A stretch of 35,076 nt of DNA from a virus. The translations under genes and the position numbers were made by a program. The stretch is from IMG/VR virus record IMGVR_UViG_3300050821_004856, positions 1 through 35,076 of that record. The stretch is one strand, 5' to 3'. Of the stretch, positions 2,566-27,448 are shown piece by piece (position 1 is the stretch's first letter; every line of letters begins with the position of its first letter). The notes below the pieces were generated by a model, which saw only the letters and a list, made by a program, of their open reading frames with translations, made no database searches and was not told the origin of the DNA.

Positions 2566-2735
2566 CGCCACAAGAGACTATCGAATGGAAAATCAAAGAG
2601 TTGGACCGGCAATTCTATGTTTGCGAGCTTGAATCAACGGACCGCCGATTGCGTCTTGTTCAAGATAAAATTGCCCGTTTAAAGCAATTACAAACGATTC
2701 TCAAAGAGCCAGATTCCATGACGGAGTCTAAATGA
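2562..2735 (+). CDS. Small coiled-coil protein, paralogue B (GTG start)
   Basis: The product has 57 residues read from GTG 2562, which overlaps the upstream stop. It aligns end to end with the preceding protein: TPQE, EWKIK, a STDRRLRL segment and KIARLK occupy the same positions, at roughly half identity. That makes this a tandem gene duplication that has diverged. The tail DSMTESK comes from cassette copy 6. There is no recognised family; a helical, possibly self-associating protein is the most that can be said. Confidence 0.8.
   Translation: MTPQETIEWKIKELDRQFYVCELESTDRRLRLVQDKIARLKQLQTILKEPDSMTESK
2711..2735 (+). repeat. Junction hairpin cassette copy 6
   Basis: AGATTCC (2711-2717) pairs with GGAGTCT (2723-2729) through seven pairs, one of them U-G, around the loop ATGAC. 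Relative to copy 5 the last base of the left arm changed from T to C, turning a U-G pair into C-G. Confidence 0.85.
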
Positions 2736-3139
2736 TTGATGTTGCAGCAAGCTATGAAGACAGCCGTTCGCGCAATGCCAAGAATGAACATCAGGGCGCA
2801 TATAAACGCGTGCTTTGCGTCTGTTCCGCTGGCTTACTTCGTTCTCCGACTGCGGCCCTTGTATTGTCTCAAGAGCCTTTTGGATTCAATACCCGTTGTG
2901 CAGGACTTGTTCCGAGTTATGCGCTTATACAGGTGGATGAAGTTTTAATTCATTGGGCCGATGAAATTGTTTGCATGGAACGTGATCATGAAGAAAAGCT
3001 AAAGGCTATGATTGGAGAGCGTAACCGACCACTAGTCTGCTTAGACATCCAAGATTCTTATGCATATCGTGATGAAAAGCTTCAATGGCTCATCAAAGAA
3101 AAATATCAGACATACCTAAATTCCATGACGGGAAGCTAA
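2732..3139 (+). CDS. Low-molecular-weight protein tyrosine phosphatase-like protein
   Basis: The product has 135 residues. The P-loop VCSAGLLRSPTAA gives C-x5-R-S with Cys31 as nucleophile and Arg37 binding phosphate. A later LDIQDSYAYRDEKL (104-117) matches the conserved Asp-containing segment of small predicted tyrosine phosphatases of the COG4551 type. It should hydrolyse phosphotyrosine or a related cysteinyl-phosphate substrate in the cytoplasm. The first 25 residues are polar and variable. It starts in cassette copy 6 and ends with a degenerate cassette. A phage-borne phosphatase may alter host signalling, but no substrate can be inferred. Confidence 0.8.
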   Translation: MIDVAASYEDSRSRNAKNEHQGAYKRVLCVCSAGLLRSPTAALVLSQEPFGFNTRCAGLVPSYALIQVDEVLIHWADEIVCMERDHEEKLKAMIGERNRPLVCLDIQDSYAYRDEKLQWLIKEKYQTYLNSMTGS

Positions 3140-4059: not shown

Positions 4060-4431
4060 ATGAAACAAATCATATTTTTGCTCATTGCGGTCTTTGCGTG
4101 TTTGCCACTTTATGCTGCCAATATGGTCGAACAGTTCCAGATTAATGCTGGAAGACAGTTCACATTTTCGGCCACCACTACAAGCACAGTGGCGATTTCA
4201 GCTAATCCAAATCGCGGTTACCTGATGATTCAGAATTCTTGTGCAAGCACGGACACAATAACCATTGTTCTTAGAAACATTGAATCAGGTAGCAATGGAA
4301 TTCAGCTAACGCCTTGTTCTACTTATGAATTTATTAAAGTTCCAACTAATTCCGTCTGGATTAAGGCTAATTCTGGGACTCAAACGGCCATCATCATTGA
4401 TGGGAATATTTCCTACGGGGAAACCACATGA
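4060..4431 (+). CDS. Secreted-type virion-associated protein
   Basis: The product has 123 residues. Residues 1-20 (MKQIIFLLIAVFACLPLYAA) form a textbook Sec signal peptide with Lys, a hydrophobic core and an A-x-A-type end. The mature part is beta-rich (NRGYLMIQNSCASTDTITIV), like small phage tail or decoration modules. The ATG has no visible ribosome-binding site. A weak promoter-like pair (TTCACT at 4024, TACACT at 4047, 17 apart) would start the RNA at or near the ATG. It overlaps the fibre gene by 4 bases. It begins the secreted/adhesin block. Confidence 0.7.
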   Translation: MKQIIFLLIAVFACLPLYAANMVEQFQINAGRQFTFSATTTSTVAISANPNRGYLMIQNSCASTDTITIVLRNIESGSNGIQLTPCSTYEFIKVPTNSVWIKANSGTQTAIIIDGNISYGETT

Positions 4432-6818
4432 AAATGCTTAGATTTTTAACGTTTGGTCTTTTTTTTTTGGTCACTGCCCACGCCAACGTAAGTAGTCCTC
4501 AGCTACCTTCACAGGTCGGCAATTCAGGTAAATTCTTAAGCACAAATGGCTCCATAACCTCCTGGCAAACGGCTGGAGGGGGTGGCGGCGGAACGCCTGG
4601 CGGCGCGACCACGTCTGTTCAATATAACAATGCAGGGGCGTTCGCGGGAGACGCAGGCTCGTTTTTTTGGAACGACACTCAAAAATTCCTAGGCATTGAC
4701 GCAGCGACTCCATTAACGGGAAAAATCACAATAGGAAACACGACGGCCGATAATACGACACCAGAAATATCAATGCGCCTTAGTGATAATCCGTCATTTG
4801 GATATGACTTCCAAAATGAAGGAAGTGCTACCGGAGACTTGATCTTAAGTGCAATTAGCAGTGGGACACCAACGATCACTCAAAGATGGAAACGCTCGGG
4901 CGCAATTGTTTTGCCCCATTACGCCGCAGGTTGTCTTCAAACAGATGCATCGGGCAACGTAACGTCGGTAAATGGCTCATGCTCTAGTTCGTCTGGAGCC
5001 AATCAGCAGCTCTCCAATCTATCCGGGACAGTGGCTGCGAATTTAAGTATAAGTCCTACTTCAACAACTGGAGTCCAAACGCTTGGAACTAATGCTAATT
5101 TTTGGGGAGCCAGTGCGATTTCTAGCCTTGTTGATGCCAATAACGTTAGCGCAGTATCCCTGTTCAATCGTGACCTAACCGATACTAGCGCAGTTATCTC
5201 AGTTGACTGGAATGGTCGAGTATTAAGAAACTCATCGAATACGACTGTGATCAATTGGAGCGCATTAACGGCCGGGACAAGCGGATTTGTGCTTCAAACA
5301 GATGGTGCTGGAAATGTAACATGGGTTTCTCCTACTGGAGGGACCACTCCGGCAGGCTCTACTGGAGACGTTCAATTCAATAATGCTGGGTCATTTGGTG
5401 CGGATAATACGAACTTCTTTTGGGACAATACAAACAAGCGCCTAGGTATTGGCACGAATACCCCTGGGCATGCCTTTCATGCAGTGGGTGGCGGCTCTCA
5501 AGTACTTTATTATGGATCATCTGCTTCGACGGCCGCAGGCTTTGAACTTGATTCGACCAATGGTGTTCAATTTGTCTTGTATGCGGATGGCCCAAACAAT
5601 CAAGGACTAATTGGACTTCAGTCGAATCATCCTTTGTCTTTTCGTACCAATAATGCGGCTAGGCTTTCTATTTCGGCGCCAGGAGCGATTCAATTCAACA
5701 CATATACCGCCGGATGTTTACAGGCTGATGCTTCAGGAAATCTTACCTCTGTAAATGGATCATGCGCTAGCGGGACGCCGTCACTTAGTAGCTTAAGCGC
5801 TGCAACGACTACGCATACTATCGATAACACTAACTTTGCCCAAGAGTGGGACTGGAACACGATCACGACTTCAAATGCCATGAAGCTTGCATCGTCCACA
5901 ATTACTAGTGGCTCATTGCTTAATTTAACAGCATCCGATGCTGCGGTGACTGGTCCCCTTCTCGAGGTTACGAGCTCTTCCGCGACCAGCAGTGCAACTG
6001 ACATTAATGTGGATTCATCTGGAACCAGTGGTACGGGCATTAACATTAACGCGAATACGGCCAGCAATAACGTTCTTGCATTCCATTCGCAGAATTCAGC
6101 TACAGGAGGCGCCACAGGTCTTCAAATCGACAATACGGGAACGACGGGAGCTGGCAAGGGTGTTGTGGTCAATCTCGCATCTAACAACGCAAATGCAGTG
6201 GGACTTAACATCACTTATTCGGCCGCGACAAATGCTGCTGATGCGATACAGGTCAATCATGATACTGGCTATGGCCTAGACATTAAAAACCACACACCCA
6301 ATGCGGTAGCTCAATCCATTTTCATTACGAACAATGACACTAGCGCTGCGGTTGGAAATGGCGCAGAGATGGTGTTTGGGACAAGCAATGGAAGCCCAAA
6401 CAAGCTTATTGCGGGGATTGCAGGCGTTGACGAGGACAACACGGCCACTTATGGCGGCGCAGTGGTTCTTTACACGACCAATAGTGGAGGCCCGACACCC
6501 ATAGAGCACTGGCGACTAGATCGTTGGGGCCACATTATCACTAAAGGCACAATTCCGGTATTATCCGGCACCAATTGCGGAACGATTCAATCTGGTTCAA
6601 ACGATGTAAACGGTAAAATCACGGTAGGAACAGGCGCAACGGCTTGCACAGTTACCTTTGCAAATGTTTATACGACCTCGCCAGGCTGTTACATCAATGA
6701 CGAGTCCACAGCTGCCGCAACAGTTCAGCCCTGGACGACGCCAAGCACGACCACAGTAGTTCTAAATGGGACTTTTGGCGCGGGTGACGTGGTTGATTAT
6801 CACTGCGAAGGGCATTGA
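4428..6818 (+). CDS. Large tail fibre-like protein with signal peptide
   Basis: The product has 796 residues. A signal peptide (MKMLRFLTFGLFFLVTAHA) is followed by a Gly-rich linker (51-60). Two copies of a fibre module follow at about 64-95 and 315-346 (VQ(Y/F)NNAGxF...FFW(N/D)(D/N)T), and a second shared element lies at about 165-187 and 427-448 (CLQ(T/A)DASGN(V/L)TSVNGSC). The rest is Ser/Thr/Asn/Gly-rich beta repeat with an ending like a fibre tip (cysteines near 719, 742, 757 and 793). It is probably a trimeric fibre or adhesin that binds the host surface. The T10 tract lies in the signal-peptide codons. It could instead be a secreted adhesin made during infection. Confidence 0.75.
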   Translation: MKMLRFLTFGLFFLVTAHANVSSPQLPSQVGNSGKFLSTNGSITSWQTAGGGGGGTPGGATTSVQYNNAGAFAGDAGSFFWNDTQKFLGIDAATPLTGKITIGNTTADNTTPEISMRLSDNPSFGYDFQNEGSATGDLILSAISSGTPTITQRWKRSGAIVLPHYAAGCLQTDASGNVTSVNGSCSSSSGANQQLSNLSGTVAANLSISPTSTTGVQTLGTNANFWGASAISSLVDANNVSAVSLFNRDLTDTSAVISVDWNGRVLRNSSNTTVINWSALTAGTSGFVLQTDGAGNVTWVSPTGGTTPAGSTGDVQFNNAGSFGADNTNFFWDNTNKRLGIGTNTPGHAFHAVGGGSQVLYYGSSASTAAGFELDSTNGVQFVLYADGPNNQGLIGLQSNHPLSFRTNNAARLSISAPGAIQFNTYTAGCLQADASGNLTSVNGSCASGTPSLSSLSAATTTHTIDNTNFAQEWDWNTITTSNAMKLASSTITSGSLLNLTASDAAVTGPLLEVTSSSATSSATDINVDSSGTSGTGININANTASNNVLAFHSQNSATGGATGLQIDNTGTTGAGKGVVVNLASNNANAVGLNITYSAATNAADAIQVNHDTGYGLDIKNHTPNAVAQSIFITNNDTSAAVGNGAEMVFGTSNGSPNKLIAGIAGVDEDNTATYGGAVVLYTTNSGGPTPIEHWRLDRWGHIITKGTIPVLSGTNCGTIQSGSNDVNGKITVGTGATACTVTFANVYTTSPGCYINDESTAAATVQPWTTPSTTTVVLNGTFGAGDVVDYHCEGH

Positions 6819-6821
6819 TGA

Positions 6822-7397
6822 ATGACTGCGGCGAAAGTCAAAAAGCGTCGCGGATTTAAAGAAGGAATGCCAGTGGGTAGGCCATCTAGCTTTGAAGATC
6901 GCCTTAGAAACATCATGGTGCGCCTCGCTCGAGAGGGCAAAACCGATGTAGAGATTGCTGAAATTTGTGGCATTGATGTAACAACGCTTTGTTTGTGGAA
7001 ATCACACGATGCATCATTTTACCAATCCATAAACCAATCTAAGAACATTCCCGACCAACTAGTTGAAATGTCTTTGTTTAAGAAAGCTCTTGGCTACAAG
7101 CGTAAAGTCACAAAGGTGTTCTGCTACGAGGGTCAAATCATAACTCATGAGCATGAAGAAGAGGTTCCACCTGATGCGACCTCGCAAATCTTCTGGCTCA
7201 AGAACAGACAACCTGGGCGCTGGAGAGACAAGCAGGACATTACGATTCATAATGAGGATGATCTTTTGACCGATGCTCAATTGAGGGCAAAGATTCTAGC
7301 GATGCTTAAGATGAGAAAGACGCCAGAAGAGAGGGAGGTTCAGGATGTTGAAGTCAGGCTACTCGAAAAAGACAATAAGCAAGAACATAGCGACTGA
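6822..7397 (+). CDS. terS: Terminase small subunit-like DNA-binding protein
   Basis: The product has 191 residues. The N-terminus is basic (KVKKRRGF) with GRPSSF at 19-24. A helix-turn-helix spans about 40-62 (KTDVEIAEICGIDVTTLCLW), followed by a helical stretch with FKKALGYKRKV. LKNRQPGRWRDK at 126-137 is a motif very common in phage small-terminase proteins. The protein would recognise packaging sites and recruit the large subunit. It is separated from the large subunit by about 4 kb of fibre genes, which is unusual. ATG 6822 follows the fibre stop by 3 bases. Confidence 0.75.
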   Translation: MTAAKVKKRRGFKEGMPVGRPSSFEDRLRNIMVRLAREGKTDVEIAEICGIDVTTLCLWKSHDASFYQSINQSKNIPDQLVEMSLFKKALGYKRKVTKVFCYEGQIITHEHEEEVPPDATSQIFWLKNRQPGRWRDKQDITIHNEDDLLTDAQLRAKILAMLKMRKTPEEREVQDVEVRLLEKDNKQEHSD

Positions 7398-7515
7398 AGT
7401 CAGGTCAGGAAAATCGGTTAGCCAGAGCGCGGCAATAGCTTACTCAGAAGCACGCAAAGCAGCCAAGGCTAAAGGAAAGGCTGGCATTGCAGCACTCAGA
7501 AAGCCATCTAAGTGA
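7345..7515 (+). CDS. Small basic Lys/Ala-rich phage protein
   Basis: A 56-residue frame starts at ATG 7345 inside the small-terminase gene (53-base overlap), with a strong GGGAGG site 7 bases upstream. It reads MLKSGYSKKTISKNIATEVR, then SGKSVSQSAAIAYSEARKAA and a Lys/Ala-rich tail. This pattern (S-x-K-T-I-S-x-N-I ... G-x-x-x-x-Q-A-x-A-I-A) recurs in small basic phage proteins encoded close to packaging or structural genes. The role is unknown; a nucleic-acid-associated function is plausible from the charge. The next gene starts inside its stop (GTGA). Confidence 0.75.
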   Translation: MLKSGYSKKTISKNIATEVRSGKSVSQSAAIAYSEARKAAKAKGKAGIAALRKPSK

Positions 7516-8831
7516 GACTATTCGCCCTCATCGCATTAATCTTATTGGGACACCTGGCCACGGCCCAGATAGCGCCTCAGCCTCAGTTTCTATCCAATGG
7601 TATTTACAATTTCGTCACGCCAACTCTCGCCAATGGCCAGATATTCCCTTTTCAATTGGATGTGAATGGCAGGCTTTTGGTCGCCTCAACCGCTAGCGTT
7701 ATTGGATCAGTGACAGCGACAATCACTAACTTTCCAGCGGTTCAGCCGGTTAGTCAGTTTGGAGTTTGGTCGGTGGGAAGAACCTGGTCACTTGGTCTAG
7801 CCACAGACTCGCTTATCGCTGGCGGGACATACAACACAACGCCGCCAACACTTATTAATGGGGAGAATTTTGGTCTTCAGCTTGATTCAAGTGGCAATCT
7901 CAAAGTCAATGCAACGGCGACAATTCCTGGGACCGTAACAGTTGTCCAGCCGACAGGAGCCAATCTCCACGCAGACATAGACAATTTCCCGGCCACCACA
8001 GCAGTGACTCAATCGACAAGTCCCTGGGTTGTCTCTGGGACAATTACGGCCAATCAGGGTGCACCTCCATGGTCGGTAAGCCAGTCCGGAGCTTGGACAA
8101 CGGGAAGAACCTGGACGCTCTCACATTCTACTGATTCCACGGCTTCCTGGACGTTTGATGGCTCTGGCAATTCGATAGGCTCGACGACGCTAAGTGCAGT
8201 CAATTATCTAGACGTTTGGTCTCCAAATATGACCCAAAACGGCGTAGCTCCTCCGACAAGAGCGGGGATGATAGCCGGAGATGATACCTTAGGTGCCGTT
8301 AGCCGGTATGTTGTTGTTAACACTCAGGGGCAGCTAGAGATTGATGGGGGCACAGCTTCAGGCGCTTCAGACTTGGGTTATCCGGTCAAGGTTGGCGGTG
8401 TTTATAATAGCACGCAACCCACGTTCTCAACTGGCCAGCGTGGAGACGCTCAGATTGATGCGAATGGAAACTTAAGAGTTGTTCTCAGCTCCGGAAACAA
8501 CGCTATAGGCTATCAAGCTGGACGCGGAGTCTTGAGCACATTCACTCAGAGCTATTCGTCGTCGAATTTGGCCACTGGAGCCTTTACCACGATCATAACC
8601 TCGACAGCCTCGACGATTAACGAGATGGACATTTTCGACACATCAGGCTTGGATTATTACCTAGCCTACGCAGCGACCTGCGGGGCCCTGTCAACTGCCA
8701 CAAATGCCATTATCGTAAGCCCTGGAGGCGGTGGTAAGGACTTTCAGATCCCAAGTGGGAATTGCGTAGGGTTTGAGGCAAAGACCGCTCTAATCAGCGC
8801 TGGGAGCGTCAATATGACGTTTTACAAGTGA
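7512..8831 (+). CDS. Secreted-type repeat protein of the fibre block
   Basis: The product has 439 residues and starts at GTG 7512 in a GTGA overlap. The signal peptide is MRLFALIALILLGHLATAQ. Three copies of a GxYNxxxPTxxxGQxxxxQxDxxGxLxV unit lie at about 29-57, 104-132 and 295-323. A repeated (S)GxWxxGRTWxL element is at 83-94 and 192-203. The C-terminus has paired cysteines (about 379 and 411) and is beta-rich. The repeat resembles units of phage virion proteins of uncertain function. No enzymatic motif is seen. It probably forms a fibre or decoration together with the flanking glycine-rich protein. Confidence 0.7.
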   Translation: MRLFALIALILLGHLATAQIAPQPQFLSNGIYNFVTPTLANGQIFPFQLDVNGRLLVASTASVIGSVTATITNFPAVQPVSQFGVWSVGRTWSLGLATDSLIAGGTYNTTPPTLINGENFGLQLDSSGNLKVNATATIPGTVTVVQPTGANLHADIDNFPATTAVTQSTSPWVVSGTITANQGAPPWSVSQSGAWTTGRTWTLSHSTDSTASWTFDGSGNSIGSTTLSAVNYLDVWSPNMTQNGVAPPTRAGMIAGDDTLGAVSRYVVVNTQGQLEIDGGTASGASDLGYPVKVGGVYNSTQPTFSTGQRGDAQIDANGNLRVVLSSGNNAIGYQAGRGVLSTFTQSYSSSNLATGAFTTIITSTASTINEMDIFDTSGLDYYLAYAATCGALSTATNAIIVSPGGGGKDFQIPSGNCVGFEAKTALISAGSVNMTFYK

Positions 8832-9955
8832 TTAAGATCTTATTTGCAACACTTCTATCTGCAAATGCCGCCATTGCCACATTTCCGCCAAATGGGCCTT
8901 TTTACATCGGCCCAAACACAGCTCAAGCGCTCCTCAACATCGTGAGTGCATTTCTTGGCAATGGCTACTCGCTCATGCCATCACAGAATCTCTTTGGCGA
9001 TTGCTCTGATGGGGATGTGATTATAAGTTCAGGAACGACAAGCCTTGCTCGAGATATGTTTTACAACAATCTCACGCTTAACGGCACCGGAATCATTTCT
9101 ATGCAGAATCAGCGTATTTTTGTGTGTGGGACGCTTGACCTAACAGCTGCAAACTCTGGTGCCATTGATGGAAGTGGCACAACTGGACAAAGTGGAACTG
9201 GTGCTGGTGCCGGGGGTACCGCTGGCGGAGTGACGGCTGCTGGAACAAATATTCCAAATCGCGCCGGAGGTGCTGGCGGCGCCGGAGGCACCACGACCGG
9301 AACGCAAGGTGCTGCTGGGACTGGTGGAAACGTCATAACCTCAAGCGCTGGTGGTGCTGGTGGTAAGGGTGGGAATGGTACCGGCGGAAATGGTGGGGCA
9401 TCTCGTGCGGCGGCGGCTGTTATTGCTTTCCCTATGCGTGATGTAATTTATACATGGTTCTTACCTCAAACTGGAGCTGGCGGCCAGGTTTACACTGGTG
9501 GATCTGGTCCCGGTGGAAGCGGTGGCGGAGGAGATACTGTTAATTCTGGCGGCGGCGGAGGCGGAGGTGGCTCAAGTGGAGCAACTGTTTATCTCGCGGC
9601 AAACATTATCAAAACAAGCGTTTCAACTGTTAGTGCCACCATTTCCGCTCGAGGTGGGCCTGGAGGCAATGGAGGTTCACCGGCCGCTGGAAATACCGGA
9701 GGTGGAGGCGGGGGAGGCGGCGGGGCTGGAGGTTGGATCGTTATAAAATATAATTCTCGAATTGGCCCCGTAGTTACAAATTTGGTTAACGCTCTCCCTG
9801 GTAATTTTGCTGGGCTTAATGGGTTTGGCGGCACAGGGCACGGAACTGGTACAAATGGCTCTCCCGGCGCAACTGGAAGCAATGGTCTCATTCAGCTTTT
9901 GAATGTTTCAACAGGTCAAAGCATTAGCAATACTACAGGATTGGCTAACCTATGA
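8828..9955 (+). CDS. Glycine-rich adhesin-like protein with signal peptide
   Basis: The product has 375 residues with a GTG start in a GTGA overlap. An N-terminal MIKILFATLLSANAAIA looks like a signal peptide. After a 90-residue head comes a long glycine-rich domain with several poly-Gly runs (GAGAGG, GGAGGAGG, SGGGGGGGGSS, TGGGGGGGGGAGGW), broken by short beta segments. In T4-like gp38 adhesins such runs form polyglycine-II sandwiches that display receptor-binding loops, so a receptor-binding role is plausible but inferred from composition. Strong codon bias to GGN explains the locally high GC. It overlaps the next gene by 4 bases. Confidence 0.7.
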   Translation: MIKILFATLLSANAAIATFPPNGPFYIGPNTAQALLNIVSAFLGNGYSLMPSQNLFGDCSDGDVIISSGTTSLARDMFYNNLTLNGTGIISMQNQRIFVCGTLDLTAANSGAIDGSGTTGQSGTGAGAGGTAGGVTAAGTNIPNRAGGAGGAGGTTTGTQGAAGTGGNVITSSAGGAGGKGGNGTGGNGGASRAAAAVIAFPMRDVIYTWFLPQTGAGGQVYTGGSGPGGSGGGGDTVNSGGGGGGGGSSGATVYLAANIIKTSVSTVSATISARGGPGGNGGSPAAGNTGGGGGGGGGAGGWIVIKYNSRIGPVVTNLVNALPGNFAGLNGFGGTGHGTGTNGSPGATGSNGLIQLLNVSTGQSISNTTGLANL

Positions 9956-10404
9956 TCACACAAGACGCTTATAACCATTCAGTCACAATGACCACAGATG
10001 GAACAACTGACAGCTATTTAGTTGGCGGTGCTATGAGCTATCAGTTCCCAGCAGGAACAAGTGACGCAGTTGTCGCAATCACTTTAGCCATTCAGGCTAA
10101 CCTCATTCTGTTCAATGCTGCGCTTACCGATATGGTCAACAATCACTATAGTTTAGAGCAGCGAGTGAGATGGATTCTGCTTTATTTAGAAGGCCAGTTC
10201 ATGGTGCTTCCGAATCGTTTGACCTATCTCAATCAGCTTCTCACCTGGGGAAACAGCATTTCAACCTATGCGGTGACCTATATCGCGACAGTTTCAGCGA
10301 TGACGAATCCAACTACAATCGCTGGTACACAACCAGATTTTAGTGCAATTGAGGCGGCGGACCCTAAGTTAACCCTTTTAGCTTGCATGCAGATTGTAGG
10401 CTGA
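9952..10404 (+). CDS. Hypothetical protein of the fibre block
   Basis: The product has 150 residues. The N-terminal 35 residues are beta-like (TTDGTTDSYLVGGAMSYQFP); the rest is helical (VVAITLAIQANLILFNAALT, then EQRVRWILLYLEGQ). It has no signal peptide, unlike the three genes before it, and I recognise no family. A chaperone or connector for the fibre proteins would fit the position, but nothing in the sequence proves it. It starts in an ATGA overlap with the glycine-rich gene. Confidence 0.65.
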   Translation: MITQDAYNHSVTMTTDGTTDSYLVGGAMSYQFPAGTSDAVVAITLAIQANLILFNAALTDMVNNHYSLEQRVRWILLYLEGQFMVLPNRLTYLNQLLTWGNSISTYAVTYIATVSAMTNPTTIAGTQPDFSAIEAADPKLTLLACMQIVG

Positions 10405-10405
10405 T

Positions 10406-10501
10406 GTGAATTATGACTGGTTTGAGATGGGAATCGTTATTGGAGTTTGCTTAATCCTCATTGTAATTTTTGGGAGTGATCAATGGCCAAAGTCGTCTTA
10501 A
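10406..10501 (+). CDS. Tiny membrane protein (GTG start)
   Basis: A 31-residue frame begins at GTG 10406, one base after the preceding stop. It encodes NYDWFEMGIVIGVCLILIVI then a short polar tail, i.e. a single transmembrane helix. It overlaps the next gene by 19 bases. The spacing and the clean hydrophobic stretch suggest a real gene, but the ribosome-binding site is poor and it is too short for certainty. Confidence 0.4.
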   Translation: MNYDWFEMGIVIGVCLILIVIFGSDQWPKSS

Positions 10502-11133
10502 TTAGACATGGGCATACGAAACTCAATGGAACAAGCGGCACGTCTGTTGACCGAATTCGTGGCTGGAAGGATGTTCCCCTTGATGAGCGAGGCATTAAGG
10601 ACGCTGAGAAGGCTAGTCTAGAGCTAAACAAGAAATATGATATTGATTGCATTTATTCTAGCGATCTTTCTAGGGCATTCGATACAGCGAAGATTTGCAA
10701 CATTCATGATTTGCCCATTACTGCTATGCTTGAGTTTCGTCCTTGGAACTTAGGGATTTATCAGGGAAAAGAAACTAAGGAAATTATCGAAGACCTAAAC
10801 AATATGGTGAGACATGAAGAGGTTGTGCCCAAAGACGGGGAAGCCTTCAAGGAGTTTCGGATGCGTTTCCTTGGAGCGCTTCAAGAAATCATTTACGAAG
10901 CAATTGACGAGGATGAGGAGATGGCGATATTTACTCACTTCAGGGACCTTAAATGCGCAGATGCCTGGATTAAGCGTGGGTGCCCTAGAGACTTCTCCAT
11001 TGACGCTAAGGTCATGATGAAAGATGATTTCGCACCTGGGACAATGCTTGAAATCCCGCTTGATTTGTTTGATCACGAGGAGGGAGAAGATATGGAAGAT
11101 GAAGACGAGGATATTTCGAGAGAAGAAGAGTAA
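10483..11133 (+). CDS. Histidine phosphatase family protein
   Basis: The product has 216 residues of the phosphoglycerate mutase-like branch. It has RHGHT at 8-12 (His9 nucleophile, Arg8), SSDLSRAFDTA with Arg64, Glu84 in LEFRPWNLG and a second His152 in THFRDLK. The catalytic set is complete, so it should hydrolyse a phosphomonoester by way of a phosphohistidine. The C-terminal 20 residues are extremely acidic (EDMEDEDEDISREEE). GGGAG lies 6 bases before the ATG. The substrate is unknown. It sits between fibre and packaging genes and is probably an auxiliary metabolic or signalling gene. Confidence 0.85.
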   Translation: MAKVVLIRHGHTKLNGTSGTSVDRIRGWKDVPLDERGIKDAEKASLELNKKYDIDCIYSSDLSRAFDTAKICNIHDLPITAMLEFRPWNLGIYQGKETKEIIEDLNNMVRHEEVVPKDGEAFKEFRMRFLGALQEIIYEAIDEDEEMAIFTHFRDLKCADAWIKRGCPRDFSIDAKVMMKDDFAPGTMLEIPLDLFDHEEGEDMEDEDEDISREEE

Positions 11134-11427
11134 ATGAAGCAAGTTTCTGGCCAAACCTTTTGCCCCTGTGGCGTTGACCTTCACTTCAAGATTGGCAAGC
11201 CAACTCGAATCACGCCTCAGACGACTAGTTTTAGGTGTCCCAAATGCTTGAGTACTTATCTCGCTAAAGCCGAGGTAGACGATAACCGCAAGGTTAAGAT
11301 AAGCTTTGGAGTTCAGCAGATAAGTCCAGCATGCGAAGCAATTATACAGAAAGCGATTGATGAACGCGGAAGAGGCAGTCGAGAAGCTAAGTCGGGAAGA
11401 GCTGATAAAGCTAGCCCAGACGCTTAA
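11134..11427 (+). CDS. Small zinc-ribbon protein
   Basis: The product has 97 residues. CPCG at about 10-13 and CPKC at about 35-38 make a two-knuckle zinc ribbon joined by a beta segment. The C-terminal third is basic (DERGRGSREAKSGRADK). It is read directly after the phosphatase stop and overlaps the TerL gene by 68 bases. No family is recognised; nucleic-acid binding linked to packaging is a guess from context. Confidence 0.65.
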   Translation: MKQVSGQTFCPCGVDLHFKIGKPTRITPQTTSFRCPKCLSTYLAKAEVDDNRKVKISFGVQQISPACEAIIQKAIDERGRGSREAKSGRADKASPDA

Positions 11428-12817
11428 GTACGAAAAGGTCAGAGAAAACACTCGAATCATTGATAGCCTTTATCCTGAGACTGGCCAGCTTTCCAGACAC
11501 AATTACATTAAGCACATGGAGTTTTTCGCTGCTGGGAAGACGCATATGGAGCGCGCAACCATAAGCGGCAATCGCTGTGGGAAAACTCACATGTCATGTT
11601 ACGAGTCTACGCTCCATCTCACTGGCGAATATCCTAGTTGGTGGGAAGGTAGACGCTTTGACCATGGCGTTGATTGGTGGAGCGCGAGCGTAACAGGTGA
11701 GACGACGCGGGACATTTTACAGCACAAGTTTCTTGGACAACCTGGACAATTCGGTACGGGACTCATTCCAAAGAAAGCAATCATTGGTGAACCAACAAGC
11801 AGACGAGGCTTAGCCGATGCCGTCGATACAATACAAATCAAGCATATCTCTGGCGACATTTCTACGCTTTCATTTAAGAGCTTCGATCAGGGCAGGGAAA
11901 AATTTCAGGGCACGAAAAAAGATGGAATTCAGCTAGATGAGGAGCCGCCTGCATCTGTTTACTTTGAGGCTTTGACTCGTCTTTCCGCCACTGAGCCTGG
12001 CCAAGAAGACGGCTTGATGCTTTGTACCTTTACCCCGCTCTCAGGAATGTCAGCGGTTGTGCTCATGTTTCTTAATGACGCCTCATCTGCGAGATTTGTC
12101 ATGACAATGGGCATGGACCACGCGCCGCACCTATCCTCAGCGACAAAGCAAAAGCTACTTAAGTCTTACCCTCCACACGAAAGAGAGGCGCGGATTAACG
12201 GAACGCCACAATTGGGCGCTGGAAAGATTTATCCAGTTGATGAAGTTGAGTTGATTGTTCCTGACTTCCAGATTCCGAAGCATTGGCCAAGAATTTACGG
12301 CTTCGACGTTGGCTGGAATAAGACTGCCTGTATTTGGGGAGCGATAGATAGGGAGACAGACATTGTCTATTTGTATTCAGAGCATTATCAAGGCGAGCAA
12401 TTGCCGGTTGTTCATGCTCAGGCGCTTAAGGCTCGAGGTCTTTGGATCCCTGGGTTGATTGATCCGGCAAGCAGGGGAAAGTCTCAAAGAGATGGTCAGC
12501 AATTGATGCAGGATTACGTGGAATTGGGTCTAAATCTCACGCCTGCATTTAACGGCGTAGAGTCTGGTCTTTATTCCTGTTGGGAACGAATGGCCGGTGG
12601 ACGCCTTAAAGTCTTCGCAAGCTTAAACAATTGGCGCGAGGAGTTCAGGCTTTATAGGAGAAACGAACAAGGCAAAGTCCACAAAGAGAAAGATCATCTC
12701 ATGGACGCAATGCGCTATATGATTATGGGATTAGACCAGGCGAAGGCAGAGCCGGTTAAGCAGAAGCCTAAAATCGAGATGCGCTCATTTCAAGGGAACG
12801 CCGATTGGATGGAGTAA
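11360..12817 (+). CDS. terL: Terminase large subunit
   Basis: The product has 485 residues from ATG 11360 (a TTG one codon earlier is also possible). The ATPase part has Walker A SGNRCGKT at 69-76, Walker B DGIQLDEE at 188-195 and a CTFTP coupling motif near 222. The RNase H-like nuclease part has Asp316 in GFDVGWN, Asp368 in GLIDPAS and the DHLMDA motif with Asp445 and Asp449. The enzyme drives DNA into the prohead and cuts concatemers. It starts inside the zinc-ribbon gene. A 59-base gap follows before the portal gene. Confidence 0.93.
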   Translation: MNAEEAVEKLSREELIKLAQTLKYEKVRENTRIIDSLYPETGQLSRHNYIKHMEFFAAGKTHMERATISGNRCGKTHMSCYESTLHLTGEYPSWWEGRRFDHGVDWWSASVTGETTRDILQHKFLGQPGQFGTGLIPKKAIIGEPTSRRGLADAVDTIQIKHISGDISTLSFKSFDQGREKFQGTKKDGIQLDEEPPASVYFEALTRLSATEPGQEDGLMLCTFTPLSGMSAVVLMFLNDASSARFVMTMGMDHAPHLSSATKQKLLKSYPPHEREARINGTPQLGAGKIYPVDEVELIVPDFQIPKHWPRIYGFDVGWNKTACIWGAIDRETDIVYLYSEHYQGEQLPVVHAQALKARGLWIPGLIDPASRGKSQRDGQQLMQDYVELGLNLTPAFNGVESGLYSCWERMAGGRLKVFASLNNWREEFRLYRRNEQGKVHKEKDHLMDAMRYMIMGLDQAKAEPVKQKPKIEMRSFQGNADWME

Positions 12818-12876
12818 AGTCCTGAATTTGTAAATCTTATAGACGCGCCCCACTAAATCCATTACATTTTTTCACT

Positions 12877-14988
12877 GTGAACCAAGACAGCTCAGACGTA
12901 CCTCAAGGTGAAACTGACCAGGACATTCTAGCGCGTGCCCGTGCCAGGTTCACTTTATGCGAAGAGGCTGAGGCAGAAATCCGCAAAGACGCGCTGGACG
13001 ACATCAAGTTCTGCTCTGGCGACCAATGGCCTGAAGACGTGAAGACCGCACGGGTCCTAGATAAGCGCCCATGCCTCACAATCAATCTTTTGCCTGAGCG
13101 CTTGAGAATAGTTCTCAATGAACAGCGCCAAAACAGGCCAGCGATTAAGGTAAATCCCGTTGATGACCAGGGAGATCCCGAGACTGCGGAAATGTTACAA
13201 GGTCTTATTCGTCACATTGAGTACTACTCAAACGCTGAGATTGCCTACGACACGGCATCAGATGGCCAGGTTAAGGGCGGCTTTGGCTACTTCAGAATGA
13301 TCACGGATTACTGTGACCCGAAGAGCTTTGACTTAGACATTCTCATTAAGCGGGTTCGCGACCCGTTTAGCGTTTATCTTGACCCTAATGCCACTGAGCC
13401 GGACGGCTCTGACACCGAGTATGGATTCGTCATCGACACCATGTCGAAGGAAACATACGAGCGCACCTGGCCGAATTCCTCTATGGGAACGGCAACAGAT
13501 TGGGCGTCCATTGGGTCATCGTCTGGCGGCTGGATGAATAAGGATGAGATTAGAATCGCTGAATATTATGAGAAGCGATTTACGCAAACTAAGATTTATC
13601 TTCTTAGCAACGGGCAAGTTATTCAAGGACCCAAGCCTTCTGATGAATTGCTTCAATCGCTTCGGCTCACGATCCTCGATGAGCGCGATACCGAAATCAC
13701 TGAAATCAAGTGGTACAAGATTAACGGAGTTGAGATTTTAGATCGCACGGAGGTTCATGGGTCTTACATTCCAATCTTTCCTGTTTATGGTGACGAGTAC
13801 TTCGTTAACGGCAAGCGCATAATTGAGAGCTTAGTCAGACACGCGAAAGACCCTCAGCGGATGTACAACTATTGGAAGACCGCTGCCACTGAGATGATAG
13901 CCTTAGCTCCAAAGGCTCCCTACATCGGTTATGAAGGGCAGTTCGAGGGTTTCGAAGACCAATGGAAGCAGGCGAATCTCAAGACCATGCCATTTCTCCA
14001 GCATAAGGTTGTCGTTCTTCCTGGTGGACAAGCGGCTCCTCCTCCTCAGCGTCAACAATATGAGGCTCCAGTTCAGGGCATCAATCAGCAGGCGATGACT
14101 TGTGTTGTGGACATCAAGGCTACAACTGGCGTTCAAGATGCAATGGTTGGGAATCAATCTCAGGAAGTGAGTGGCGTTGCGATTCAACGTCGGGTTAATC
14201 AATCAAATCTCACGAACTTCCATTTTAGCGACAACTTCAAGCGCACGCTCAGACATGCTGGCTGCGTTCTCTTAGAGTGGATTCCTAAAGTTTACAACAA
14301 GCCTCAGGCAATAAGGATTCTAGAGGCAGACGGTCAGCAACAGATTGTGAAGATTAACCAGATCTTCCAAAAGGGTGGACAGAACAAGTCCTATTACCTC
14401 GATAAGGGGAAATACGATGTCACGATTGACACAGGCCCAAGTTTTCAAACCAAGCGTCAAGAAGCTGTGGCTGACATGCTTGACCTTACTCGCTCAGTCC
14501 CTCAGTCCATGCAAAATGCGCTGGATTTACTTGTTAGAAAAATGGATTGGCCGGACGCTGACAAGATTGCTGACCGATTGGAAAAGCTACTTCCTCCTGG
14601 CCTGGCTGAGCCGAATGACGAGAACCAAGCGCCGGTACCACCTCAAGCACAAGCGCAAATCACGCAAGGCATGCAAATCATGCAAAAGCAGTCCCAGCTC
14701 ATTGCGCAACAAGATGAAGTCATTCGGACGAAAAAACTAGAGATTGAATCTAAAGAGCGGCTTGAGGCCCAAAAGCAGCGTAACGATTTGGTGCTTGAAT
14801 ATATGAAGCACGACCTGGCTGGCGCGAAGACTCTGTTAGAGGCAGAGCTTTCGCAGATTGATAGCCGCATGGCTCTTTTACACGAAAATATGCAGATTTT
14901 GAATCAACCTGGAGATGGGCAGCCTTCACCGGCCGCAGCTTCACCGGGACAAGTACAACCCACGGGTGGGTCATCGCCCGGCCAATAG
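12877..14988 (+). CDS. P22-like portal protein
   Basis: The product has 703 residues with a GTG start, close to the 725 of P22 gp1. The N-terminal region has the typical helical start with CSGDQWPEDVKTAR, CLTINLLPERLRIV and NQRQNRPAIKV-like segments, then the FGYFRM and VRDPFSVYLDPNA motifs of P22-type portals. The C-terminal 120 residues are Gln-rich coiled coil and then a Pro/Gly/Ser tail, matching the barrel extension. Twelve copies form the DNA channel. No ribosome-binding site precedes the GTG, and the gap upstream has a TTGTAA...CACTAA promoter-like pair only. Confidence 0.9.
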   Translation: MNQDSSDVPQGETDQDILARARARFTLCEEAEAEIRKDALDDIKFCSGDQWPEDVKTARVLDKRPCLTINLLPERLRIVLNEQRQNRPAIKVNPVDDQGDPETAEMLQGLIRHIEYYSNAEIAYDTASDGQVKGGFGYFRMITDYCDPKSFDLDILIKRVRDPFSVYLDPNATEPDGSDTEYGFVIDTMSKETYERTWPNSSMGTATDWASIGSSSGGWMNKDEIRIAEYYEKRFTQTKIYLLSNGQVIQGPKPSDELLQSLRLTILDERDTEITEIKWYKINGVEILDRTEVHGSYIPIFPVYGDEYFVNGKRIIESLVRHAKDPQRMYNYWKTAATEMIALAPKAPYIGYEGQFEGFEDQWKQANLKTMPFLQHKVVVLPGGQAAPPPQRQQYEAPVQGINQQAMTCVVDIKATTGVQDAMVGNQSQEVSGVAIQRRVNQSNLTNFHFSDNFKRTLRHAGCVLLEWIPKVYNKPQAIRILEADGQQQIVKINQIFQKGGQNKSYYLDKGKYDVTIDTGPSFQTKRQEAVADMLDLTRSVPQSMQNALDLLVRKMDWPDADKIADRLEKLLPPGLAEPNDENQAPVPPQAQAQITQGMQIMQKQSQLIAQQDEVIRTKKLEIESKERLEAQKQRNDLVLEYMKHDLAGAKTLLEAELSQIDSRMALLHENMQILNQPGDGQPSPAAASPGQVQPTGGSSPGQ

Positions 14989-14998
14989 GAGAGTAAGA

Positions 14999-15925
14999 AT
15001 GTCCATCGTTATCACATCCTCAACTGACTCTGATGCTGATGTGCAATCTGCACAGGGCAATCAACAGAAGATTGGGGATAAACCCGCGCCTCCTGAAGTT
15101 GTACTTCAAGAGACAAAATCACCCGCCACTGCTTCGGAAGCTGTGGAAGGCGAAGCTGAGGGTAAAGCTCCAGCAGAGCCGAAAAGTCCTGAAGAGAAAC
15201 CAACAACTAATCTCGACAAACGGTTTGCTAAGCTTACCCGGCAACGGGAAGAGGCTAAGGCCATTGCAGATGATGCAAAAAGGCAGGCGGCATATTGGGA
15301 GAACGAGGCTAAAAAGTATCGTGATTCCACTAAGCCCCCCGAAGCTAAAGTCGAGACTGTTCCTGCTGCTGTAACGCAAACAGGTGAACCAAAACAAGAG
15401 GACTTCGAAACGTATCAAAAGTATGTCGAGGCACGAATGGATTGGAAGTTCGAGCAAGCTGAGACGGCCCGTGAGCGTAAAGCAAACGAAGCTGCCACAA
15501 AAGCTGCAATCGATAACACCTGGAAGTCTTATCAGCAAAAGGAAGTAGCGTTCATCAAGGACAATCCTGACTATCAGGCTCGAGTCGATGCGATTAAGGA
15601 GGCTGGGATTAAGTTCTCACCAATCGTTGAAAGTCGAATCATTGAAGCGGGGAGTCCTGAGCTTGCTTATGAGCTGATGAAAGATGCCGACGAATTTAGA
15701 GCATTGAATCAGATGAATCCAAACGATGCGCTAGAGCATATCGGCGTTGTTAAGGCTCAGTTGAGGGCTAAATCTTCAGGCACAGCATCAAAAGTACCTG
15801 AAATTAAACAACCCAAACCAGTGTCTCCGGTTGGTTCCAAGGTCACAGCGATCAAGGACCCAGAAAAGATGTCGGTCAAAGAGTACGACGCTTGGCGGAG
15901 AGCGGGAAACAGCCCCACTGGCTAA
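14999..15925 (+). CDS. Scaffolding protein
   Basis: The product has 308 residues from ATG 14999, which has TAGGAGAG upstream. The longer frame from 14915 lies in the portal gene and is rejected. The protein is highly charged, Ala/Glu/Lys-rich and mainly helical, with a disordered acidic N-terminus and a basic, Pro-containing C-terminus (KQPKPVSPVGSKVTAIKD). Such composition and its place between portal and coat identify the internal scaffold that guides P22-type coat assembly. No protease motif is seen. Confidence 0.82.
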   Translation: MSIVITSSTDSDADVQSAQGNQQKIGDKPAPPEVVLQETKSPATASEAVEGEAEGKAPAEPKSPEEKPTTNLDKRFAKLTRQREEAKAIADDAKRQAAYWENEAKKYRDSTKPPEAKVETVPAAVTQTGEPKQEDFETYQKYVEARMDWKFEQAETARERKANEAATKAAIDNTWKSYQQKEVAFIKDNPDYQARVDAIKEAGIKFSPIVESRIIEAGSPELAYELMKDADEFRALNQMNPNDALEHIGVVKAQLRAKSSGTASKVPEIKQPKPVSPVGSKVTAIKDPEKMSVKEYDAWRRAGNSPTG

Positions 15926-15938
15926 ATAGGAGCATTAA

Positions 15939-17147
15939 ATGGCCAATCAAATTTTAACCATTAGCATGATTACTCGCGAAGCACTCCGCGTGCTCGTTAA
16001 TAATCTCTCGTTCACCAAGGGAGTTAATCGTCAATATGACGATCAATTCGCGGTCAAGGGCGCCAAGATCGGTAGCACTTTGAACATCCGCAAACCTGCT
16101 CGGTATGTTGGCCGCCTTGGTCCAACAATCAACATTGAGTCTCAGACTGAGACCTATGTGCCGGTAACCCTCTCCACTCAACGCGGTGTTGACGTTCAGT
16201 TTACGTCGGCTGATTTGCACTTGAGCATGGACGATTTCAGTGATCGTTATCTCAAGCCTGCAATGGCCAACGTAGCTAACTTCATCGACTTTGATGGTTT
16301 GGCTTTGACGAACCAAGTCTTCAACATGACGGGATTAGCCGGGACGCCCCCTGCATCTCTCTTGACGTTCTTGAATGCCAATAAGCTCTTGGCAGACAAC
16401 GCGACGCCACAAGATGATATGCGCTCGGCAATCTTAGGCCCTGCGGCTGAAGCGTCCATCGTCAACGCTCTAACCACGTTCTTCAATCCGACGAAAGCCA
16501 TCAGTGAGCAGTATGAGCAAGGCCGGATGGGTCGCGCGATTGGCCTCAAATGGTCAATGGATCAGAACATTAACATCCACACGAACGGCATTTATGCAGG
16601 ATCGACGCCACTTGTGAATGGTGCTGGTCAAACTGGCTCGAACCTCATCACTAACGGATGGGCTGCGACGACTGCTGTTCTTAATGTTGGTGACGTGTTC
16701 CAGGTCGCTGGAGTGTTTGCAGTTAACCCGCAAAGCCGCCAATCAACCGGTGCGCTTCAATGGTTTGTTGTGACTGCCCCAGTCGTGTCTGACGGTGCAG
16801 GAAACGCGACAATCCCGATAAGCCCTGCAATCATCACTTCTGGTCAATTCCAAAACGTGACTGTTTCGCCCGGATCTGGCGCAGCTCTTACGCTCTTTGG
16901 AACCACTGGCCAGACGTATCAGAACAACCTCGTTCACCACAGAGACGCCTTCGTCCTTTGCTCTGCTGATTTGCCCCTCCCACGAGGCGTTGACATGGCT
17001 GCACGAGTAGCTGATCCCGAGAGTGGTCTATCTGTCCGCATGGTACGCGCATACGACGTTGTGAACGATTTGTTCGTGACTCGTCTAGATGTGCTCTATG
17101 GATGGGCTCCGCTCTATCCACAGCTTGCATGTCGCGTGGCTGGATAA
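15939..17147 (+). CDS. Major capsid protein, P22 coat type
   Basis: The product has 402 residues with an AGGAG site before the ATG. It starts MANQILTISMITREALRVLV, followed by NRQYDDQFAVKGAKIGSTLN and IRKPARY, matching the N-arm and E-loop region of P22 gp5-type coats. DLPLPRGVDMAARVADPESG then VRMVRAYD near the end is another signature of this family. It has the HK97 fold with an inserted domain (about 215-320). It forms the icosahedral shell. A hairpin terminator follows 13 bases after the stop. Confidence 0.9.
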   Translation: MANQILTISMITREALRVLVNNLSFTKGVNRQYDDQFAVKGAKIGSTLNIRKPARYVGRLGPTINIESQTETYVPVTLSTQRGVDVQFTSADLHLSMDDFSDRYLKPAMANVANFIDFDGLALTNQVFNMTGLAGTPPASLLTFLNANKLLADNATPQDDMRSAILGPAAEASIVNALTTFFNPTKAISEQYEQGRMGRAIGLKWSMDQNINIHTNGIYAGSTPLVNGAGQTGSNLITNGWAATTAVLNVGDVFQVAGVFAVNPQSRQSTGALQWFVVTAPVVSDGAGNATIPISPAIITSGQFQNVTVSPGSGAALTLFGTTGQTYQNNLVHHRDAFVLCSADLPLPRGVDMAARVADPESGLSVRMVRAYDVVNDLFVTRLDVLYGWAPLYPQLACRVAG

Positions 17148-17160
17148 TCCATAACAACTC

Positions 17161-17192
17161 GGCCTGAGATGTAATGTCTCGGGCCTTTTCTT
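17161..17192 (+). terminator. Hairpin terminator after the coat gene
   Basis: GGCCTGAGA pairs with TCTCGGGCC (nine pairs, one U-G) around a 7-base loop at 17161-17185, followed by TTTTCTT. It lies just after the coat gene and before the next ribosome-binding site, so it probably reduces read-through to favour coat protein. Confidence 0.75.
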
Positions 17193-17221
17193 CGTCCACA
17201 ACTTTAACAAGGAGTTTTTAA

Positions 17222-17803
17222 GTGTTTAAAACTAAAGAAATGATTCTGGGCCTCTTGCCCATGTTCGCATTTGCCAATCCTGGCCCCTCTATCACCAATA
17301 CGCCAAGCCAAGATCAAGATGGCATGGAATTCGCGCCTAATGGCAATCTAATGCCTGGTGACGGAAAAATCGTCGGCAAGGCTCCTAACTCATTCGTGAG
17401 TTTTTGGGGCAATATGCCGGTTGTCCAGCCTGCGACCACGTCCGCTAACGTCCATACGCCTGCGGCTGGCTCTGTAACCTCAGTGTTTGTCAATACCACC
17501 TTCGATGGTGCGTTTGATGCTTACACTGCGACCATAGTTGCCGGGAGCAATCTGATTACCATGTCAAGCGTGACTGGCTTGTTTGTTGGTATGGCGATTG
17601 CTGGCGCTGGCATTCCAGTTGGTGCGGTTATCGGAAGCATCAACACAGTAAGCCTGGTTGTTTCCTTGGTTTCGACCTTGGGCCAACCGCTTCCTGCGAC
17701 CGTTTCTGGTGCAGGCGTTGCGCTGACTATCGGCGGCACAAAAGCGTATACGATTGGAGACATCGTAACTGCTTTGAAGCTTGCCGGTCTTTTGGCTGAT
17801 TAA
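17222..17803 (+). CDS. Head fibre/decoration-like protein
   Basis: The product has 193 residues with a GTG start (AAGGAG upstream). The N-terminus MFKTKEMILGLLPMFAFANP has a hydrophobic run ending AFA, like a signal peptide. The middle is a beta-rich Gly/Val unit (SGxxLITMSSVTGLFVGMAI, then GAGIPVGAVIGSI). The end, YTIGDIVTALKLAGLLAD, is the helical terminus shared by many phage head-fibre or decoration proteins encoded next to coat genes; NSFVSFWGNMPVVQPA fits the same family. It most likely binds the capsid. Terminators lie on both sides. Confidence 0.65.
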   Translation: MFKTKEMILGLLPMFAFANPGPSITNTPSQDQDGMEFAPNGNLMPGDGKIVGKAPNSFVSFWGNMPVVQPATTSANVHTPAAGSVTSVFVNTTFDGAFDAYTATIVAGSNLITMSSVTGLFVGMAIAGAGIPVGAVIGSINTVSLVVSLVSTLGQPLPATVSGAGVALTIGGTKAYTIGDIVTALKLAGLLAD

Positions 17804-17812
17804 TCATTAACT

Positions 17813-17848
17813 GCCTGGATGTTCTACGTGGAACATCTGGGCTTCTTT
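17813..17848 (+). terminator. Hairpin terminator after the head-fibre gene
   Basis: A 12-pair stem (two U-G pairs) at 17813-17842 with the loop TACGTG is followed by TTCTTT. It separates the capsid genes from the tail-adaptor genes. The downstream AAGGA site at 17854-17858 is outside the hairpin. Confidence 0.78.
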
Positions 17849-25852: not shown

Positions 25853-27448
25853 ATGCCAAATACTCAGCTTTCACCAGTTTTTAGACAGCGGTTCTTTGAC
25901 AATAACGGAATTCCTTTGAATGGCGGCCAGGTCTCTTTCTTCATAGCTGGAACGAGCACACCAAAAGCGACTTACACTGATTTTACTGGGACTGTCCCAA
26001 ACTCGAATCCAGTGATTCTCGATTCCAATGGCTATGCAGACATTTGGCTCTCAGAAGATAACATAGGCTATAAAGTGATGCTTCAGACGTCTGTTGCGTC
26101 CGGTAGCAATCTTTTATGGACAGTTGACGATGTTTTCTCCTCTGCTGGTCAAGCCTTTTTGGCTCCATGGTCTTCAACGTTCACTTACTCAAAAGGTAAT
26201 ATCGTTAGCGAAGGTGGAAGAATCTTCGTTTCTGTTCAGAACACGAATCTTAATCATGATCCTGCCCTCGACGCTGCTCAGACTTTTTGGACTGAGTATG
26301 GAGGCGCAATAAGGACGGTCACGGCGTTTACGACAATAGTTGAGGCTGATGACACGATACTTTTTAACACAACTGCTGGACAAATTACCCAGCCGCTTCC
26401 TGATTTAACGGGGCTTCCTACAGGAACAAGGTTCACACTTAAGAACGTTGGAACGGCTCAGAATAGGCTTGTAATCACTTGTTTTGGCGGTCAGCTCATT
26501 GATGGGCAATCAAGCTATATCTGTGAGTCTTCCAACAGTTTCCTGGAGAGTGTAACTGTTGAAAGCAATGGAACCAACTGGGAAATTGTTGATGGGTTTA
26601 CAATTCCACTCGCAAGCATTGGGAACAGCAAACTAGCGGCTCAAGCGGTGCAGGCTTCAAACATTCAAAATGGTGCTGTTGTTGAAAAGTATTCTCATTT
26701 CAATTCGCCAGGAACTTCTTCATTCGTAGTTCCGACCAATGTTGTTGCCATGAGAATGTATTTAGTTGGCGGCGGTGGCGGTGGAGGATGCGGTGGGGTC
26801 CAGACTGGAGGCGGTGCCGGTGGTGGTGGAGGCGGCGGCGGTAGCGGAGTTGTTCCGACAATCTGTGCCGATTTTACTACTGTGCCGGGTGAAAGTCTCG
26901 TCATCACGGTTGGCGGTGGTGGTGCCGGTGGGGTTGTCGGTTTAACGAGTCCTCAGTCTGGTGTGCAAACGAGCGTTCAGGGGACCAATGGTTATAGAGT
27001 TAGCCCTGGTGCGGCTCCTGGAGCGAACGCTGCTGCCTCTAGCGCTGGTACTGGCGGCGCCGCTGTCTTTACTTTTGATTCGGCTCAAACTGCTGGTGGA
27101 AATGGCGGCAACGGTGGTGGAGGCGGTGGAGCTGGGGGAGCGACAGGCCAGCCTTCTGGGCTTTATTCCCAGCCCGGAGGTAGTGGCGGTGGTGCTGGTG
27201 CCGGTAACGGAGGTGGTGGAGGTGGCGGAGGTGCAGGCGTTGGTCCCTACAATGGCCCTCCCTTTGGAGGCGCTGGGGGTAATGGAGGCAGTTCTGGAAA
27301 CGCTTCAACTCCTGGCTCTATGGGCACAGGTTCGGGCGCTGGGGGCGGCGGTGGAGCTGGTTCTAAAAACAATGGCGCTGGCGCTACAAATGGCGGAAAC
27401 GGCGCAACTGGCGCTGTGATCTTATTTTGGGTTGGAACAGGGCCTTGA
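25853..27448 (+). CDS. Tailspike/fibre with P22-like head-binding domain and glycine-rich tip
   Basis: The product has 531 residues. Residues 1-110 follow the head-binding domain pattern of P22-like tailspikes: FRQRFFDNNGIPLNGGQVSF, AGTSTPKATYTD, NPVILDSNGYADIWL and YKVMLQ. Residues 110-270 are beta-rich. From about 275 (YSHFNSPGTSSFVVPTNVVA then MRMYLVGGGGGGG) the rest is a glycine-rich domain of the kind with a 'tFxxPG...vPxGVxxvxVxxxGGGGGG' start. The N-terminus docks on the tail hub and the C-terminus probably binds the receptor. No endorhamnosidase motif is seen. Confidence 0.82.
   Translation: MPNTQLSPVFRQRFFDNNGIPLNGGQVSFFIAGTSTPKATYTDFTGTVPNSNPVILDSNGYADIWLSEDNIGYKVMLQTSVASGSNLLWTVDDVFSSAGQAFLAPWSSTFTYSKGNIVSEGGRIFVSVQNTNLNHDPALDAAQTFWTEYGGAIRTVTAFTTIVEADDTILFNTTAGQITQPLPDLTGLPTGTRFTLKNVGTAQNRLVITCFGGQLIDGQSSYICESSNSFLESVTVESNGTNWEIVDGFTIPLASIGNSKLAAQAVQASNIQNGAVVEKYSHFNSPGTSSFVVPTNVVAMRMYLVGGGGGGGCGGVQTGGGAGGGGGGGGSGVVPTICADFTTVPGESLVITVGGGGAGGVVGLTSPQSGVQTSVQGTNGYRVSPGAAPGANAAASSAGTGGAAVFTFDSAQTAGGNGGNGGGGGGAGGATGQPSGLYSQPGGSGGGAGAGNGGGGGGGGAGVGPYNGPPFGGAGGNGGSSGNASTPGSMGTGSGAGGGGGAGSKNNGAGATNGGNGATGAVILFWVGTGP

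Follow-up and report, generated by a model that had tools for sequence, protein, structure and literature searches.

Tailed-phage particles are thought to be completed in the cytoplasm, and exported proteins encoded by phages are already known: Llp and Cor, Lom, PblB with its putative signal peptide (SP), and the spanins, which are known exported phage proteins. In phage T5, the gene of Llp, a periplasmic lipoprotein of superinfection exclusion, lies beside that of the receptor-binding protein pb5, which blocks T5 infection when added in free form (PMC9586334). The Dec protein of phage L binds P22 capsids in vitro (PMC6449081). Among fibre-like proteins, a missing SP was counted as support for phage origin (PMC6199706). 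In the open literature that we searched (most subscription journals lie outside it), we found no description of SPs on several fibre, tip or capsid-adjacent proteins per tailed phage across unrelated phages.

We analysed a window of 35,076 bases, which is an entire IMG/VR virus record. Its + strand carries a P22-type morphogenesis module, in which the portal, scaffold, coat, head-closure and ejection genes follow one another in order. The window phage is a P22-type podovirus, and its TerL places it closest to EBPR podovirus 1 among named relatives (50% identity). Five N-termini encoded in this window look like cleavable Sec signal peptides. The genes are as follows, with the predicted SP and cleavage site where present:

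4060..4431, + strand: SP gene 1, small protein of 123 aa with two mature cysteines; SP MKQIIFLLIAVFACLPLYA, followed by A (cleavage between LYA and A)
4428..6818, + strand: SP gene 2, fibre-like protein of 796 aa; SP MKMLRFLTFGLFFLVTAHA, followed by N (cleavage between AHA and N)
6822..7397, + strand: terS (terminase small subunit), phrog_309 E 8e-37, without SP
7512..8831, + strand: SP gene 3, fibre/tip-like protein of 439 aa; SP MRLFALIALILLGHLATA, followed by Q (cleavage between ATA and Q)
8828..9955, + strand: SP gene 4, glycine-rich adhesin-like protein of 375 aa with two mature cysteines; SP MIKILFATLLSANA, followed by A (cleavage between ANA and A or, three residues further, between AIA and T)
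9952..10404, + strand: gene of 150 aa, ATGA-coupled to 8828, without SP
10483..11133, + strand: histidine phosphatase (branch 1), PF00300 E 3e-27, without SP
11357..12817, + strand: terL, phrog_2 E 1e-27, without SP
12877..14988, + strand: P22-type portal, PF16510 E 7e-178, without SP
14915..15925, + strand: scaffold, phrog_8865 E 2e-33, without SP
15939..17147, + strand: P22-type major capsid protein (coat), PF11651 E 4e-38, without SP
17222..17803, + strand: SP gene 5, capsid-adjacent protein of 193 aa; SP MFKTKEMILGLLPMFAFA, followed by N (cleavage between AFA and N)
starts 18145 and 18867, + strand: head-tail genes
20932-21417: GNAT-type acetyltransferase, phrog_1249
start 21430, + strand: gp7-like ejection gene
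25853..27448, + strand: conventional spike/fibre candidate, phrog_863 E 8e-8, without SP (score -5.9)
start 27844: M15 peptidase-type endolysin

Four of the SP genes are near each other, as the sequence-only reading had it, but they do not form the single block that it described, since terS (6822-7397) parts them into two pairs. The gene at 17222 stands apart from the other four, directly 3' of the major capsid gene and between two strong terminator-like hairpins (17161-17185 and 17813-17842, with 11 and 13 pairs), the first of which directly follows the coat gene. The conventional spike/fibre candidate at 25853 is located downstream of the ejection genes, a P22-like placement; its C-terminal half is glycine-rich, with a Gly_rich_2 match slightly under the cut-off. 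Other genes of the window are less usual. The histidine-phosphatase-superfamily gene (10483-11133), located between the SP cassette and terL, is odd company for packaging genes, and the GNAT-type acetyltransferase occupies the place of P22 gene 14, directly ahead of the gp7-like ejection gene. A protein with a CVCSAGLLRSP motif (2732-3139) resembles low-molecular-weight tyrosine phosphatases and has no Pfam match. At the left end (1-187), tandem ADLSSANLRY-type pentapeptide-like repeats run past the record edge.

SPs were scored with a scanner of our own, based on n-region charge, hydrophobic core, c-region and the residues at -3/-1 with hand-set weights, and calibrated on E. coli K-12 proteins with controls that we picked ourselves. 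The 30 exported E. coli K-12 proteins score 8.33-11.73, and 1 of 110 cytosolic proteins exceeds 8.3 (carB, 9.07). The genes at 4060, 4428, 7512, 8828 and 17222, for which SP-type starts had been proposed, are present as ORFs as stated and score 10.24, 10.61, 11.50, 10.07 and 9.12, respectively, whereas the maximum of the other 38 window genes is 7.03 (the gp7-like ejection gene at 21430, whose n-region has no positive charge); the sequence-only observation is thus confirmed. When the first 25 residues encoded by each gene are shuffled 400 times, the real score is reached once at most. Five matches among 43 genes have P ~4e-5 at the cytosolic false-positive rate, and P ~0.0014 at the rate of other viruses, where 2.6% of 755 genes (at least 100 aa, from 69 other viral loci) pass the threshold. 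In P22, for which 17 virion and lysis genes were scored with the same scanner, high scores are confined to Rz and Rz1, both lysis genes, and none of the virion genes attains the threshold.

These probabilities, and the recurrence of the pattern in other phages, argue against chance or mis-called starts, by which some of the five hydrophobic ends would be untranslated or accidental; we regard this as very unlikely. What speaks for it is found at two genes. The start at 4060 is the weakest of the five because it lacks a Shine-Dalgarno site and a crude start caller favours an internal start at 4102, and for 8828 the same caller favours an internal start at 8942. Against it, three starts overlap a stop by 4 nt (4428 with the stop of gene 1, ATGA; 7512 with the preceding stop, GTGA; 8828 with the stop of gene 3, GTGA), and 17222 is preceded by a strong ribosome site, AAGGAG.

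The anatomy of the five N-termini is that of type I Sec SPs: a basic n-region, a core within 7-16 residues and small residues at -3/-1. Their hydrophobic runs comprise 7-15 residues (E. coli SPs: 7-16, median 11), and polar residues are found immediately past the predicted cleavage sites; high-scoring N-terminal membrane anchors, with a median run of 17.5, are a poorer fit. All five lack a lipobox with a +1 Cys, and a lipoprotein identity was therefore dropped. The sequence-only reading had also raised a virion role for the hydrophobic ends. Left uncleaved, they would hold the proteins at the inner membrane or on the virion, or act in genome ejection. The longest runs (15 in 4060, the least clear of the five as an SP, and 13 in 7512) would suit such ends, as would the passing of 10 of 40 tested E. 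coli inner-membrane proteins through the scanner and the membrane-active nature of the P22 ejection proteins. This role is disfavoured, and we consider it unlikely, given the short runs, the small -3/-1 residues, the polar residues just past the site, the pairing of cysteines and the absence of SPs from the P22 virion genes.

For the cysteines, we set 26 SP-less fibre homologues against 20 SP proteins, taken from the window together with six more contigs. In this hand-picked, non-random sample, in which some proteins are related, 17 of the 20 SP proteins contain mature cysteines, in even number in 15 of the 17, whereas cysteines are present in 20 of the 26 SP-less homologues and even in number in 6 of those 20. 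The median cysteine content is 1.04% in the SP proteins vs 0.24% in the SP-less homologues (p = 0.0013). More numerous and even-numbered cysteines are as expected of disulfide-bonded exported proteins, and this pattern, which depends little on the SP prediction, speaks for folding in an oxidising compartment.

Looking at each protein separately, the fibre-like protein 4428 has a shaft with repeated fibre motifs, which come straight after the SP, and a Cys-containing C-terminal domain (window 6474-6815; poor AlphaFold model, pLDDT 59.5). This domain is common to SP fibres of two other phages, and four cysteines are kept in the three phages. It is also found in 11 of 380 small-genome bacteria, all of one phylum, where it several times ends SP-bearing proteins (L103-L110); Bacteroidota, the phylum of Chitinophaga, was rejected as its origin (0 of 296 genomes vs 11 of 380). 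The C-terminal domain of 7512 is modelled as a beta-sandwich (AlphaFold pLDDT 80.8) with weak matches only, to phage proteins and C1q-like beta-sandwiches, and contains a Cys pair, both members of which are missing from two homologous domains. No relatives were found for 4060 in IMG/VR or INPHARED, or for 4428 in INPHARED. The five SP proteins have no direct match to tail-fibre families, although fibre homologues exist in phages, and no virion-binding domain was found in the mature N-termini. In type, the five resemble fibre, tip and head-decoration proteins of phages rather than products of host genes. We set aside host morons, or host-derived secreted genes, as the main reading because coupling ties the genes to the packaging/head run and phage fibres are their best relatives.

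The bacterial occurrences of the 4428 domain bear on another explanation, namely that the exported proteins are adhesins which alter the stickiness or biofilm behaviour of the infected or lysogenic host, as secreted fibre-like proteins do in bacteria. Bdellovibrio secretes the phage-fibre-like MAT proteins (PMC10769870), and PblB of a pneumococcal prophage, with a putative SP, mediates adhesion (PMC4508584). No integrase or repressor was recognised among the window genes scanned, and any benefit to the host may therefore have little time to arise; nor was an S74 domain found in 4428 (no match in a Pfam search). We therefore think a role as host adhesins improbable.

IMG/VR was scanned with 4428 and, separately, with its C-terminal domain. 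L036, part of a 46-kb contig, encodes a 1438-aa SP-bearing fibre that is 70% identical to 4428 in the latter's C-terminal part (matched residues 275-796). This contig is a myophage, with no match to the P22 portal and with its own genes for terminase, portal, head, tape measure and baseplate. Five of its genes have SPs (scores 8.7-11.7), and one of these five encodes a Phage Tail Collar domain (PF07484 E 2e-13). In L100, found with the C-terminal domain, the four genes immediately ahead of terL all have SPs, and one of them matches a PHROG tail-spike family (E 3e-19). More fibre-like SP proteins are found in L063, L064, L075, L076 and their parent contigs. Another uncultured virus (L094, 7512-9524) encodes a spike-like protein of 670 aa, which has an SP and, in its mature part, 12 cysteines. 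The idea of a secreted-adhesin cassette thus stands in part: the fibre, tip-like and glycine-rich domains of 4428, 7512 and 8828 and the four-gene cassette of L100 agree with it, whereas 17222 fits less.

SP-bearing fibres are a minority pattern, since the majority of the 42 fibre relatives lack an SP. In the close TerL relatives L019-L023, the stretch from terL to gp10 is free of SP genes within the reach of their contigs, so the cassette is dispensable for the virion type of the window phage; we rejected the idea that P22-type morphogenesis always includes an SP cassette, as it is missing in these relatives and in P22. Reverse-strand genes are inserted between terL and portal in two of them (L020, 11653-13340; L021, 11430-12191), which is another cargo position.

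Homologues without SPs are found for two of the five proteins. In L002, L020 and L021, a homologue of 17222 is the next gene after coat, and its N-terminus has no hydrophobic segment. The homologue of 7512 in L101 (85% identity over a 46-residue stretch) has neither SP nor cysteine and is located between genes which, by size and order only, are taken as portal-sized (715 aa) and coat-sized (423 aa). Since these homologues hold virion-gene positions elsewhere, the SPs of 7512 and 17222 look like additions. Likewise, 17222 looks like a decoration-type protein with an acquired SP, because its capsid-adjacent family lacks one elsewhere.

Export of the five proteins late in infection is, in our judgement, probable. 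Export itself is well supported by the SP anatomy, the recurrence in unrelated phages and the paired and enriched cysteines, and late expression is suggested by the position of the SP genes amid packaging and head genes, where promoter-like sites are no commoner than chance and strong ones are absent. In the course of events that we propose, proteins of the phage fibre, tip and head-decoration type would have acquired functional Sec signal peptides. The five genes, which are in a same-strand run with the terminase and capsid genes, would be expressed late; the host Sec machinery would export the products and signal peptidase would cleave them, as the SP anatomy suggests. Folding with disulfide bonds, to which the paired cysteines point, would take place in the periplasm or outside. 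Lysis would then mix the cell contents and the envelope, and the exported proteins would bind mature virions, as decoration proteins can on P22-type particles. We hold export followed by such post-lysis loading only tentatively, at somewhat short of an even chance.

A close rival is that the exported fibres sit on the receptors that the phage itself uses, or cover the cell surface, and never join virions. They would stop superinfection, or keep progeny from adsorbing again to the dying host and to debris. We judge this possible but doubtful. The SP proteins and their relatives carry receptor-binding-type domains, T5 offers a precedent with Llp and free pb5 (PMC9586334), and the SP-less spike candidate at 25853 would be left for the virion. 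The same candidate counts against loading, as the window phage already has a spike without it, and so does the absence of the cassette from L019-L023. Against receptor blocking, the genes are in the head/packaging run and apparently expressed late, in contrast to T5 Llp, which the title of a study cited in PMC9586334 calls early; five different proteins, one of a capsid-adjacent family, exceed such a need; and there is no lipobox. A destination on the particle is slightly favoured over receptor blocking because the domains are of virion type (collar, tail-spike, capsid-adjacent family) and because Dec binds P22 capsids in vitro.

The recurrence in unrelated viruses suggests that some may finish particle parts, or coat the host, outside the cell interior. 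If Sec-tagged fibre and decoration proteins of several unrelated phages do join particles, virions can be completed outside the cytoplasm with oxidised parts; alternatively, phages would deploy soluble copies of receptor-binding parts. Either outcome would alter the annotation of such genes. That there is a widespread, unrecognised class of tailed phages, with Sec-exported fibre, tip or decoration proteins, periplasmic disulfides and virions completed outside the cytoplasm at or after lysis, is conceivable, with the balance clearly against it.

Among the known systems, lambda Lom is likewise an exported protein encoded within a tail gene region (PMC12309495), but it is an outer-membrane beta-barrel and neither a fibre nor a decoration protein. 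The MAT fibres of Bdellovibrio are secreted and combine an SP with phage-fibre architecture (PMC10769870); they differ in being bacterial genes with a ~130-aa (beta-rich) domain after the SP and often S74, which was not found in 4428. Streptococcal PblA and PblB are phage tail proteins that act at the host surface, and in one pneumococcal strain a putative SP is present on PblB (PMC4508584); these are one or two proteins of Gram-positive siphophages, and they resemble the window proteins by description rather than by any demonstrated sequence relation. T5 Llp and T1 Cor are phage-encoded and exported, their gene may adjoin that of a receptor-binding tail protein, and the family has a disulfide (PMC9586334). 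They are small lipid-anchored lipoproteins, the T5 one described as early, whereas the window proteins reach 796 aa, have no lipobox, are fibre-like and are encoded amid head genes. For phage L Dec no SP is described, and 17222 has no sequence match to any named decoration family; Dec nevertheless belongs to a P22-type phage and binds finished capsids from outside, the property that post-lysis loading requires (PMC6449081).
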